IMG/VR virus record: IMGVR_UViG_3300047095_000401
Span: 1-35,457 of that record
Strand: one strand, 5' to 3'
DNA: 35,457 nt
From: a virus
Shown here: piece after piece, positions 12,285 through 21,734 of the stretch
How positions within the stretch are numbered: position 1 is the first letter of the stretch
Layout: every line of letters starts with the position of its first letter
Position numbers and translations under genes: made by a program
Notes under the pieces: model-generated
Databases searched by the model: none
The model's input: only the letters and a program-made list of their open reading frames with translations
What the model was told of the DNA's origin: nothing

Positions 12285-12375
12285 TTTTTGATTCGACATT
12301 GAATGCAATTGCAATCGGAATCAGAATCGACAACAACCAAAACAGAATGAACAACAAGACATGTTTCTTTTTCAT
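12238..12375 (-). CDS. Small membrane protein, 45 aa
   Basis: The product is MKKKHVLLFILFWLLSILIP followed by IAIAFN and a charged tail (ESKNEHEKTKARQ). It has one N-terminal membrane helix or an uncleaved signal. The ATG overlaps the stop of the winged-helix gene as ATGA, and the 3' half overlaps the TerS start. Function is unknown; size and shape would fit an envelope-acting accessory peptide. The coupling supports expression, but the gene is short. Confidence 0.6.
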   Translation of the reverse strand: MKKKHVLLFILFWLLSILIPIAIAFNVESKNEHEKTKARQNTIKN

Positions 12376-12764
12376 GAAAACAAGGTTGTTTGAATTGTTT
12401 TTGACCGCATTTGACGGACCGTTTCTTCTGCAACTTCACGAATTCTTCTGATTGCATTCTCGCGTGAAATTAACGATTCAATCCAGTCTTCAATTTCTTC
12501 TGGTGTGTTTGCTACGTAGTAACCTTTTGAAGTTGCAATCAGTCCAGCGATCAAGTCATTTGTTCTGATATATTGAATCATTTTTCTGATTCTGACCGTG
12601 TCAAAGTTCAGGTTCAGTGTTTTGTTGATTCCGTCACGTATTTGTTCACCAGTGACAATGTTCTGTTTCCCTTTTCGGTGTTCAAATCTTCTGACAATGG
12701 TTTCAACAACGTATCTTTCTTCATTTGTCAATTCATGTGTGTATTCTTCAAAGTGTTTAATCAT
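12372..12764 (-). CDS. Winged-helix-like DNA-binding protein, 130 aa
   Basis: The central segment (IVTGEQIRDGINKTLNLNFD, then VRIRKMIQYIRTNDLIAGLI and TSKGYYVANTPEEI) has the helix-turn-helix and wing pattern of phage winged-helix proteins. The C-terminal part is an Arg-rich helix (ENAIRRIREVAEETVRQMRS). It lies at the boundary between replication and packaging genes, so it could regulate late genes or assist packaging; both are inferred. Confidence 0.7.
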   Translation of the reverse strand: MIKHFEEYTHELTNEERYVVETIVRRFEHRKGKQNIVTGEQIRDGINKTLNLNFDTVRIRKMIQYIRTNDLIAGLIATSKGYYVANTPEEIEDWIESLISRENAIRRIREVAEETVRQMRSKTIQTTLFS

Positions 12765-19423: not shown

Positions 19424-20275
19424 TCATTCATTTTCACAAAACCCAGAATCGCAGGTGTCATATTGGTCGAATTCAATTGTTAGTTGCTTTTTGAAATTTT
19501 TTATTTGTTCGTAAGAAACATCTGAACGCCATGTTCCAGATTTGTTTTTTTCATTTTTTTCAGCACAAAGAAACCAGTTCATTTTGTTGGAGTGTTTTTC
19601 AAACATTCTGTGTAATAAAATCGGGTTTCGGTGAAAACAACCCACGCAATTGTTAAATTCAGCAAATCGAACTGGTTTGTCTTTCCAAAACTTTTCAATT
19701 TCGTCTTTGAAAGTTCTTTTTTCAATCAAAGGGAATGTCGGTTTTTGCCACGGTATCTGTTTCCATTTATTTCGTCCGTCTTTCAACTTTTCAGTTGTCC
19801 ATTTATATGATAAAAAGCCGTTTTCATCTGTTTTTTCAATCATTGTTTGCATTCTGCTTGTTTCATTTGCTCTGAAACCGATTCGCATTTCAACTGGTTC
19901 TTCAAAATTATCGAGCCAGAATTTGAACATTGGTTCAATTTTCAAAAAAGTCGTGCAATATCTGTGAAGTTTATTCGGCAACCAACCGCCTTTTTTTTGA
20001 ATTATTTGGTCATAAGTTTCGCCAGAAACAATTTTTATTTCTTGACCGATAAATTGTTCAAGGTCTAAAATTGTATAAATGATTAAATCGTCTTCAAGTG
20101 TTCCAACAAAAGGTTTTTGAATTCTGTCTTCAACAATTTGGCGAATTTTCGAATCTGGAAAAAGACAATTCTTGTCTTCAGTTCTTACCAAAGAAAAAAG
20201 ATTAAGGTCGGCTAAATAATTAGCAGCGATAAAAGAAGAAGTTTTTCCGCCAGAAACAGAATTGATTGTTTTCAT
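19424..20275 (-). CDS. PAPS-reductase-like PP-loop protein, 283 aa
   Basis: SGGKTSS (residues 8-14) is the PP-loop that binds ATP-type nucleotides. RYCTTFLKIEP (~105-115) is the second signature of the PAPS reductase/DndC-like superfamily. C-terminal Cys (C210-x2-C213, C237, C275-x4-C280) could hold an Fe-S cluster or metal. Members reduce or activate sulfur or adenylate substrates; phage copies are of unknown substrate. It lies three genes after the TAGT-like glycosyltransferase, so a part in nucleic-acid modification is possible (inference). By eye the gene is more A/T-rich in codon choice than its neighbours, hinting at recent acquisition. Confidence 0.8.
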   Translation of the reverse strand: MKTINSVSGGKTSSFIAANYLADLNLFSLVRTEDKNCLFPDSKIRQIVEDRIQKPFVGTLEDDLIIYTILDLEQFIGQEIKIVSGETYDQIIQKKGGWLPNKLHRYCTTFLKIEPMFKFWLDNFEEPVEMRIGFRANETSRMQTMIEKTDENGFLSYKWTTEKLKDGRNKWKQIPWQKPTFPLIEKRTFKDEIEKFWKDKPVRFAEFNNCVGCFHRNPILLHRMFEKHSNKMNWFLCAEKNEKNKSGTWRSDVSYEQIKNFKKQLTIEFDQYDTCDSGFCENE

Positions 20276-20463
20276 GATTTTAAGATTTTGATTTCAACTG
20301 GTGTGATTGCAAAGACTTCAAGAAAGTCAAAGAAGTCTTGACATTCTTCAGAAGTCATTTGTCTGGTTGTTTGAACTTCACCGCCTTCAAGTTTGAAAAC
20401 GATCTGAAACAATTCAGGTTCAAAGATTGATGTCTGGTGTGTCTTGTTTTTTGTGCTTTTCAT
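20272..20463 (-). CDS. Hypothetical protein, 63 aa
   Basis: The product starts MKSTKNKTHQTSIFEPELFQ and ends AITPVEIKILKS. The ATG at 20461-20463 is preferred over a TTG one codon earlier. It overlaps the glycosyltransferase 3' end by 44 bp in another frame, and its stop overlaps the PP-loop start as ATGA. No function was recognised; the overlaps suggest co-expression with both. Confidence 0.65.
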   Translation of the reverse strand: MKSTKNKTHQTSIFEPELFQIVFKLEGGEVQTTRQMTSEECQDFFDFLEVFAITPVEIKILKS

Positions 20464-21304
20464 CAAGAATCAAAGGTGTTGTGTTCAACCACGAAATTGA
20501 ATGATGAATTCTCGGGTTTGAACTTGACATCATTGCAACTTTAACTGATGAAGGTTGCATGATTACGGTTGTGAAAGACTTGCAGTAAGTCCCGAAACGC
20601 AAATATGCTTCCGTCATTCCAGAATTCTGCGATTGTGTTGCAGTCTGAACCAGTGAAACCATTGGAACCGTACCAAACAATTCACCACGACTTCCGAGTG
20701 TTGTGTATGTGTTCACATCTTCATTGATTGAACCAACAAACTGAAATTCACGATCAGTTGAACAAATGAATGAATTCATACATTTTCGCAACAAGGGTCT
20801 TTTCTGAACATACGGGTTTTCGATGCCGCCGATGAAGTCACCGCCTTGTGCAAAGGCAATTGATTTGAAAGGTGTTGACTTGAAGAATTCAAGATGAAGG
20901 TCAAAGACTTCATCAAGATTCATTCTTTTGTCAACCAGAAGTTTTTTGCCGTCTGGTGAAATGTATCTGAATTCAAATGACACGTAATCGTCATCGAGTT
21001 GAATGAAAAACTTCAGGTCAAGTTCTTTTGCAATCTGAAAACACGCATTTCGTGCGTAAACAATCGTTTTGCGATCTTCAAAGTTGTTCCCTTCATCAAA
21101 GGTTTCTGAAATCTTCAGTTTGTCAAACACCTTCACATTGTCAATACCAAAGTTGTCAATGTACTTCTGAAGGGTTTTGTCTTCATTGTCAACGATGAAA
21201 TAAATTCGACCAGTGTAATTGCATTTTTTCAAGGTCTTCAAGGTCTTGACTTTGTCAGGTCGTCCATGTGTCAAGATGAAAACGGCAAAAGATTCATTCT
21301 TCAT
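20420..21304 (-). CDS. TET-associated-type glycosyltransferase (TAGT-like), 294 aa
   Basis: The start at ATG 21302-21304 (MKNESFAVFILTHGRPDKVK) is preferred because the longer frame lies within the upstream gene. The fold shows ILTHGRP (residues ~10-16), a metal-binding acidic motif QLDDDYV (102-108), and AQGGDFIGG, CMNSFICSTDREFQFVG and NEDVNTYTTLGSRGELF (194-210), with IHH (266-268) near the end. This pattern fits the phage TAGT/GREB1-related family proposed to glycosylate oxidised pyrimidines in DNA. I see no TET/JBP dioxygenase or DNA methyltransferase here. The substrate (DNA, nucleotide or protein) is therefore open. Confidence 0.75.
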   Translation of the reverse strand: MKNESFAVFILTHGRPDKVKTLKTLKKCNYTGRIYFIVDNEDKTLQKYIDNFGIDNVKVFDKLKISETFDEGNNFEDRKTIVYARNACFQIAKELDLKFFIQLDDDYVSFEFRYISPDGKKLLVDKRMNLDEVFDLHLEFFKSTPFKSIAFAQGGDFIGGIENPYVQKRPLLRKCMNSFICSTDREFQFVGSINEDVNTYTTLGSRGELFGTVPMVSLVQTATQSQNSGMTEAYLRFGTYCKSFTTVIMQPSSVKVAMMSSSNPRIHHSISWLNTTPLILDEKHKKQDTPDINL

Positions 21305-21695
21305 TGTCAATGTATTCTTCAAGATATTGTTTTTTGAGTTCTTCACAAAGTTTGACAAAACCGTGTTGAATTGCCTTTTCAAAATCAATGATAACGAGTG
21401 CCGACTTTTCAAAAAGTCTTTGTGTTTCTGGTGAAGAATGTGCGTAATAATCTGCAATTTTTTCATAATTGAAAACCAGATGTCTTCTTGCGGCATCAAT
21501 CAGAAACCTTTTTTCTTCAAAACTGATGTTTGATTGTTCAATTTCACGAATCAGTCTTTGTGTCTTTGACTTGTCAACAAGTTCAATGATGTGCGGTTTT
21601 CTGTTTTTGGGTTCATAAACTGGTGCTTGAATGTTCTTTGTGTACTTGACCGAGTTCGGGTCAACTTCTTCACCAAAAAGATTGATTTGCTTCAT
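21294..21695 (-). CDS. Conserved partner of the TAGT-like gene, 133 aa
   Basis: The product starts MKQINLFGEEVDPNSVKYTK and then has PVYEPKNRKPHIIELVDKSK, IADYYAHSSPETQRLFEKSA and LVIIDFEKAIQHGFVKLCEE. It is helical and acidic. I have an unverified recollection of the pattern EPKN-KPH--ELVD ... FNYEKIADYYAH in phage proteins next to glycosyltransferases or DNA-modification genes. It overlaps the glycosyltransferase by 11 bp, so the two are coupled. A possible adaptor or DNA-binding partner; the function is unproven. Confidence 0.7.
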   Translation of the reverse strand: MKQINLFGEEVDPNSVKYTKNIQAPVYEPKNRKPHIIELVDKSKTQRLIREIEQSNISFEEKRFLIDAARRHLVFNYEKIADYYAHSSPETQRLFEKSALVIIDFEKAIQHGFVKLCEELKKQYLEEYIDNEE

Positions 21696-21709: not shown

Positions 21710-21734
21710 AAAAAAGGGCGGTTGTTAGCCGCCC
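21710..21734 (-). terminator. Rho-independent terminator or attenuator before the TAGT unit
   Basis: Minus strand: GGGCGG stem (pairing 21729-21734 with 21716-21721), 7-nt loop, then T6. It follows the 73-aa gene and stands only ~15 bp before the start of the 133-aa gene, with no promoter visible between, so read-through may feed that gene. Confidence 0.8.

Follow-up and report, generated by a model that had tools for sequence, protein, structure and literature searches.

An obligate pair of a TAGT glycosyltransferase and a small partner protein in phages and prophages: a putative replication-targeted DNA glycosyltransferase

With which partners does a phage glycosyltransferase of the TAGT family work, and on what does it act, if no enzyme that would prepare a modified base can be seen beside it? 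This question is raised by a locus in a virus record of 35,457 bases, which was analysed over its whole length and is called the window here. A preliminary description, made by reading the letters of the window, had proposed that four overlapping genes, coding for proteins of 133, 294, 63 and 283 amino acids, form one unit. All four open reading frames are indeed present on the minus strand, with the lengths, positions and overlaps claimed. The features of the locus are as follows.

21710-21734, minus strand: hairpin GGGCGG-CTAACAA-CCGCCC followed by six T, resembling an intrinsic terminator (read from the sequence)
21294-21695, minus strand: X, 133 aa, obligate TAGT partner with a conserved helical domain at about residues 18-115
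21675-21689, minus strand: putative beta-sliding-clamp-binding motif QINLF, residues 3-7 of X, then a variable linker of 9-12 residues
21294-21304, minus strand: 11-nt overlap ATGAAGAATGA of the X stop and the TAGT start (read from the sequence)
20420-21304, minus strand: TAGT (PF20691), GT-A glycosyltransferase, 294 aa; Pfam E 2.7e-33, phrog_842 E 4.7e-62
20272-20463, minus strand: 63-aa open reading frame, an orphan outside the unit; its sole phmmer match among 86 loci is itself
19424-20275, minus strand: PP-loop (PAPS-reductase/DndC-like) protein, 283 aa, an independent passenger; phrog_424 E 3.1e-16

The overlaps amount to 11 nt between X and TAGT, 44 nt between TAGT and the 63-aa frame, and 4 nt between the latter and the PP-loop gene. 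The one that joins the X stop to the TAGT start probably couples the translation of the two genes; short overlaps are usual at this junction in the relatives, where the commonest gap is -10, followed by -1, -4 and -7. The terminator-like hairpin upstream of X would set X and TAGT off from the upstream gene. The pair sits among early and replication-type genes of the window.

The TAGT protein

The 294-aa protein had been recognised as a TAGT by its motifs, and profile and structure comparisons had been proposed as a check. Both agree with the assignment. The protein falls into PF20691 with 116.1 bits against a curated cut-off of 27.5, as well as into the PHROGs family phrog_842, and it carries the named motifs, i.e. 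LTHGRP, DDD (residues 104-106), NEDVNTYT (194-201) and IHH (266-268, within RIHH at 265-268). Among 39 TAGT relatives there is little or no variation at the DDD, NED and RIHH positions, D105, D106, N194, D196, R265, H267 and H268 being strictly invariant, and judged by these residues the GT-A active site of the window protein is intact. The predicted structure (mean pLDDT 87) matches the GT-A enzymes TarP, GpgS, SpsA and GalNAc-T2 in the PDB (E 1e-4 to 1e-3). The model confirms a GT-A fold with no close structural relative; the matches have low TM values (about 0.35-0.47) and are of a kind shared by GT-A folds in general. Sequence profiles of TAGT, X and the PP-loop protein gave no significant match in the PDB.

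The TAGT of T6 belongs to the same two families (PF20691, E 1e-8; phrog_842, E 5e-78). When the TAGT profile was compared by hhalign with the T6 protein as a lone sequence, no useful result was obtained; it is Pfam and PHROGs that put both proteins in one family.

Two other gene arrangements were seen among the relatives. In four prophage loci (L098, L108, L114 and L120) two or three TAGT genes stand in tandem behind one X, and a simple pattern search finds all three motifs in just one copy per locus; non-catalytic copies may be retained in such loci. In a Clostridiales prophage (L119:6300-7745) TAGT lies in one frame with an N-terminal P-loop kinase-like domain, which weakly matches phrog_800 and guanylate kinase and makes this gene a possible kinase-TAGT fusion.

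The partner X and the two downstream genes

The 133-aa protein, called X here, had been described as a coupled partner of the TAGT, with the advice to survey the gene neighbourhood of its family. The survey supports the partnership far more strongly than the sequence alone could tell. A forward scan of 2.9 million viral contigs found TAGT relatives at 80 loci; five annotated phages and the locus of the window itself bring the set to 86. A homologue of X lies directly upstream of TAGT in 85 of these 86 loci, the exception being a contig that starts inside the TAGT gene. In nearly all of them the end of X and the start of TAGT are no more than a few bases apart or overlap, an overlap of about 10 nt being the most frequent case. 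The reverse scan, in which X alone was compared with 84,980 bacterial and archaeal genomes, is the stronger test: 35 prophage loci from many phyla were found, TAGT follows directly downstream in 34, and the remaining contig stops just past X. A profile scan with TAGT found X upstream in 74 of 74 testable loci. The viral locus sets overlap in part, and over all fetched loci there are 134 distinct X sequences. In other words, TAGT adjoins X in every testable locus. A Porphyromonas phage has a TAGT of only 25% identity, yet a divergent ParB-X is found upstream of it (X E 1.4e-10).

When the neighbouring open reading frames were clustered, X and TAGT turned up in 118-120 of 120 loci, and the same-strand family that ranks after them reached 44. 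The distances of X and TAGT are correlated as well (Mantel r 0.54, 0 of 5000 permutations). X and TAGT are an obligate pair, and the functional unit consists of the first two genes only. The linkage, the overlap and the correlated distances suggest that the two proteins may form a physical complex. No relatives of X or TAGT were found among plasmids.

The proposal of one four-gene unit thus stands for X and TAGT and fails for the 63-aa and PP-loop genes. The former was discarded as a member of the system for its lack of conservation, since phmmer retrieves it alone among the 86 loci. The PP-loop protein has the SGGKTSS motif attributed to it and seven cysteines in total, of which five, and not six as had been counted, are C-terminal. 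Comparison with PAPS reductase and DndC profiles had been proposed; the first gave a match (phrog_424), whereas with the DndC model TIGR03183, which has a cut-off of 290 bits, the score is no higher than 15.6. Within the PP-loop family SGGKTSS is invariant, C107, C210, C213, C275 and C280 each reach 95% conservation or more, and C210/C213 and C275/C280 form invariant pairs.

These conserved cysteine pairs, together with the overlap of the genes in the window phage, speak for joint action of TAGT, its partner and the PP-loop enzyme, the latter preparing the base by sulfur or redox chemistry. However, neither X nor TAGT is found near any of the 61 fetched PP-loop relatives, and a PP-loop gene occurs in only 3 of 80 TAGT loci, at a distance of 1-4 kb. 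The PP-loop relatives in other phages sit among replication genes, and no Dnd-type partner was seen among the neighbours of the 61. The TpA content of the PP-loop gene is also unlike that of the pair: observed over expected TpA is 29/93.6 in the PP-loop gene (ratio 0.31, with six TTA codons), 8/40.9 in X and 15/83.2 in TAGT, and the weaker depletion suggests a more recent acquisition. We therefore rejected the PP-loop gene as a member of the system, contrary to the preliminary description, and joint action is the least probable of the explanations weighed here.

Two forms of X and a putative clamp motif

The core of X comprises about 110 residues. When 40 diverse sequences are compared, 19 columns are invariant, among them R71, H72, E96 and D104. 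Its AlphaFold model is helical, with pLDDT above 90 for residues of about 31-90. A Foldseek search found no significant match in the PDB (best E 1.9), and a fold search in a viral library gave only two significant matches (41-59% identity), which are probably members of the same family.

Around this core X occurs in two forms. In one, seen in 58 distinct sequences, X makes up the C-terminal portion of a longer protein, and the examined ones carry a ParB-type N-terminal domain. The E. coli representative of this longer form is YnaK, encoded by the Rac prophage; its ParB domain most resembles that of phage ParB-DNA-methyltransferases (phrog_498, E 1.9e-51). The ParB-less form, as in the window, starts with M-K-Q-x-N-[LM]-F-G and continues with a variable linker, usually of 9-12 residues. 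The clamp motif contained in this start is present in 67 of 72 distinct ParB-less X proteins as compared with 0 of 58 ParB-X proteins at the corresponding place and a background rate near the start of 1.4% in 4,506 other open reading frames, counts that are to be read with the relatedness, i.e. non-independence, of the X sequences and the shortness of clamp motifs in mind. One of the five ParB-less proteins that have no motif is a broken copy. Q and F are invariant among the motif-bearing X proteins and the linker beyond them varies; such constancy next to a linker that drifts is a sign of selection.

The canonical bacterial clamp-binding motif is Q-phi-x-[L/M]-[F/L] (PMC11139829), and UmuC has the clamp motif QLNLF, the Asn of which contacts the clamp (PMC3716654). 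QINLF of X lies at the N-terminus ahead of the variable linker, matches the canonical consensus and is nearly identical to the UmuC motif, from which we infer that it is a putative binding motif for the clamp (DnaN). A possible second sliding-clamp-binding motif, QTTLF, is seen near the C-terminus (residue 125) of a 130-aa protein of the window (phrog_2113, 12372-12764, minus strand). The archaeal virus HHTV-2 carries the ParB form of X. Its host is expected to have PCNA and not a beta clamp, and we count this in favour of the reading set out next.

The reading we prefer, with a probability of roughly 0.6, is that X and TAGT make up a replication-targeted, two-subunit DNA glycosyltransferase in which X is the adaptor. 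TAGT would be the catalyst, in which the GT-A fold provides a metal and nucleotide-sugar site (DDD and HH) and a catalytic region (NED). The helical core of X would bind TAGT, and its N-terminus would bring the complex to DNA, the presumed acceptor. In the window phage QINLF would dock on the beta sliding clamp of the host, so that new phage DNA would be modified behind the fork, and in most prophage relatives the ParB domain would replace the clamp peptide as the targeting end. It was established by computation that the pairing is obligate, that the active site is intact and that ParB domain and clamp motif alternate.

What the pair may modify

The preliminary description saw neither a dioxygenase nor a methyltransferase in the genome, and our searches bear this out. 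They covered 36 X-TAGT records including the window, many of them possibly fragments. A C5-methyltransferase (PF00145) was found in 0 of the 36, with positive controls; an N6/N4-methyltransferase (PF01555) is absent from the window and present in 1 of the 36. Tet_JBP (PF12851) was likewise found in 0 of the 36, but this absence is weaker because the search had no working positive control. The thymidylate-synthase/hydroxymethylase family (PF00303), detected in the T6 control, has a single positive among the 36, a 191-kb Vibrio phage; the window and the 34 further records gave no match. In phage phi jlb1, a complete genome of 54 genes, there is no annotated candidate for an acceptor-making enzyme. 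Without enzymes for hmC or hmU, TAGT cannot, within the reach of these searches, rely on the known phage-encoded routes. Either the acceptor is a canonical or host-made base, or X adds some chemistry, or the target is other than DNA. Under the preferred reading, given that no hydroxymethyl-making enzyme was found, the sugar would go onto a base, canonical or supplied by the host, or onto a group in whose formation X takes part.

About eight distinct loci (L029, L089, L091, L210, L013, L018, L019 and L020) have a member of a SAM-methyltransferase family (Methyltransf_23/11, not a recognised DNA-methyltransferase profile) beside or between X and TAGT. It is absent from the window, and it could be an optional third gene that perhaps methylates the transferred sugar.

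If X itself made the acceptor, e.g. an oxidised or activated base to which TAGT then adds the sugar, the two genes would be a minimal two-step pathway. It is conspicuous that X is obligate while no other acceptor-making enzyme was found, and that its 19 invariant columns are striking for an adaptor. An all-helical protein of this size with no known enzyme fold is nevertheless a poor candidate for an enzyme; moreover, the Porphyromonas homologue has Phe in place of the invariant His and yet stands beside a TAGT that retains DDD and HH, and the exchange of ParB domain and clamp peptide is what one would expect of a targeting subunit. We consider this pathway unlikely, although it is the foremost of the alternatives.

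The restriction-site pattern, which had been thought to fit base modification, argues against a blanket protection. In the window CCWGG (CCAGG plus CCTGG) occurs 0 times against about 27 expected, AGCT 0 times against 12, GATC 27 times against 98 and CGATCG once against 7, and GAATTC is slightly overrepresented (67 sites, 54 expected). The avoidance of CCWGG, GATC and AGCT suggests that the virion DNA is not broadly protected, and a modification may be incomplete or have a different function. We count this avoidance against the preferred reading, together with the failure to find an acceptor-making enzyme and with the lack of a recognisable fold in X, for which binding to TAGT is deduced from the linkage.

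The whole window is also depleted in TpA (642 observed against 3,403 expected, odds 0.19); the depletion is seen in every kilobase and across codon boundaries, and CA/TG is raised to 1.44. We discarded it as a footprint of modification, since the TpA odds average 0.79 in X-TAGT loci (0.55 in the nearest relatives) and go down to 0.47 in loci with the PP-loop gene only. Either a TA-to-CA/TG mutational bias or strong selection could be its cause.

Both the avoided restriction sites and the lack of a visible base acceptor pathway would be in accordance with glycosylation of a protein on or near DNA, e.g. a replication, packaging or host chromatin protein. GREB1, which databases name as a TAGT relative, reportedly glycosylates a protein, PGAP names the E. 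coli TAGT gene 'GREB1-related protein', and the best structural neighbours of TAGT include the protein glycosyltransferases GalNAc-T2, COLGALT1 and glycogenin. These structural matches are, however, the weak, generic GT-A matches noted above, and the DNA-targeting modules as well as the T6 precedent favour DNA. A protein target thus seems improbable to us and is ranked behind an enzymatic X.

The module has matches in 1,595 of 5,426 complete E. coli genomes, 887 of them over at least 80% of its length. In the Rac prophage of K-12 MG1655 ynaK keeps the ParB part alone, X being lost and no TAGT detectable, so that this standard laboratory strain has no more than a remnant of the module. ATCC 8739 has an intact-looking copy of the pair, both reading frames being open. 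In Rac-type prophages the pair lies between the lysis genes and the terminase, and the same slot holds unrelated cargo in related prophages, which weakens the terminase neighbour as proof of DNA modification. The slot would suit a moron that keeps other phages out by adding sugar to a structure on the cell surface. But no membrane-targeting feature was noticed in either form of X-TAGT, the ParB domains and clamp motifs favour DNA, and the window pair has early and replication-type neighbours, so that such a role is very improbable.

The DNA-directed reading can be compared with several known systems. TAGT, reportedly defined by Iyer et al. in 2013, is a known family; of the X subunit, the obligate linkage and the two targeting forms we found no description in the searchable literature, a scope outside which the founding 2013 paper falls. 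A literature search on the function of ynaK and ydaY, on DNA modification in HHTV-2 and on a ParB-TAGT link also yielded nothing specific. E. coli Rac YnaK-YdaY is the same two-gene module as that of the window, but with ParB-X instead of the clamp-motif X. The phage ParB-DNA-methyltransferases (phrog_498) share with YnaK a ParB-type N-terminal module on a DNA-modifying protein. Unlike them, ParB-X has no methyltransferase domain, its place being taken by X and a separate TAGT, and in the window X the clamp motif replaces the ParB domain. With the TET/JBP-associated glycosyltransferases of base J type the pair shares a TAGT domain predicted to glycosylate DNA bases, whereas the obligate X and the absence of a C5 methylase and of TET/JBP (the latter by an uncontrolled model) from the window and the 35 other records set it apart. 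The likeness to PAPS reductase and DndC is limited to the PP-loop protein, which shares SGGKTSS with them and remains far below the DndC cut-off.

A further parallel is T-even glucosylation, in which the T6 enzyme of the same Pfam and PHROG family makes gentiobiosyl-hmC (PMC13216743). The T4 alpha-GT binds the T4 sliding clamp and co-purifies with gp45 (PMC13216743), which sets a precedent for a sliding clamp that brings such an enzyme to phage DNA, as proposed here. The differences are that T6 has a dCMP hydroxymethylase and an alpha-GT to make the acceptor, none of which was found in the window, that no X was detected in 50 kb around the T6 TAGT, and that X-TAGT has its clamp link on a subunit of its own, where it suits the clamp of the host instead of one from the phage as in T4.

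Taken more broadly, X-TAGT could be a self-sufficient class of DNA hypermodification, i.e. a two-gene system that adds sugar to DNA without a hydroxylating, methylating or hydroxymethylating enzyme, is steered to replicating DNA by ParB or the host clamp, and is common among tailed phages and prophages, with E. coli at one end of the host range and haloarchaea at the other. We put this forward tentatively, at rather less than even odds. According to a 2026 study of phage glucosyltransferases, TAGT is solitary in 288 of 753 phage genomes, which lack any known acceptor pathway; the study regarded these enzymes as potentially novel transferases (PMC13216743). A large subset of such 'solitary' TAGTs in fact has a dedicated partner, X, which offers a concrete and testable route for TAGT to reach DNA. 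As the pair is present in about a third of the sequenced E. coli, including ATCC 8739, the question of its target is answerable in laboratory strains.
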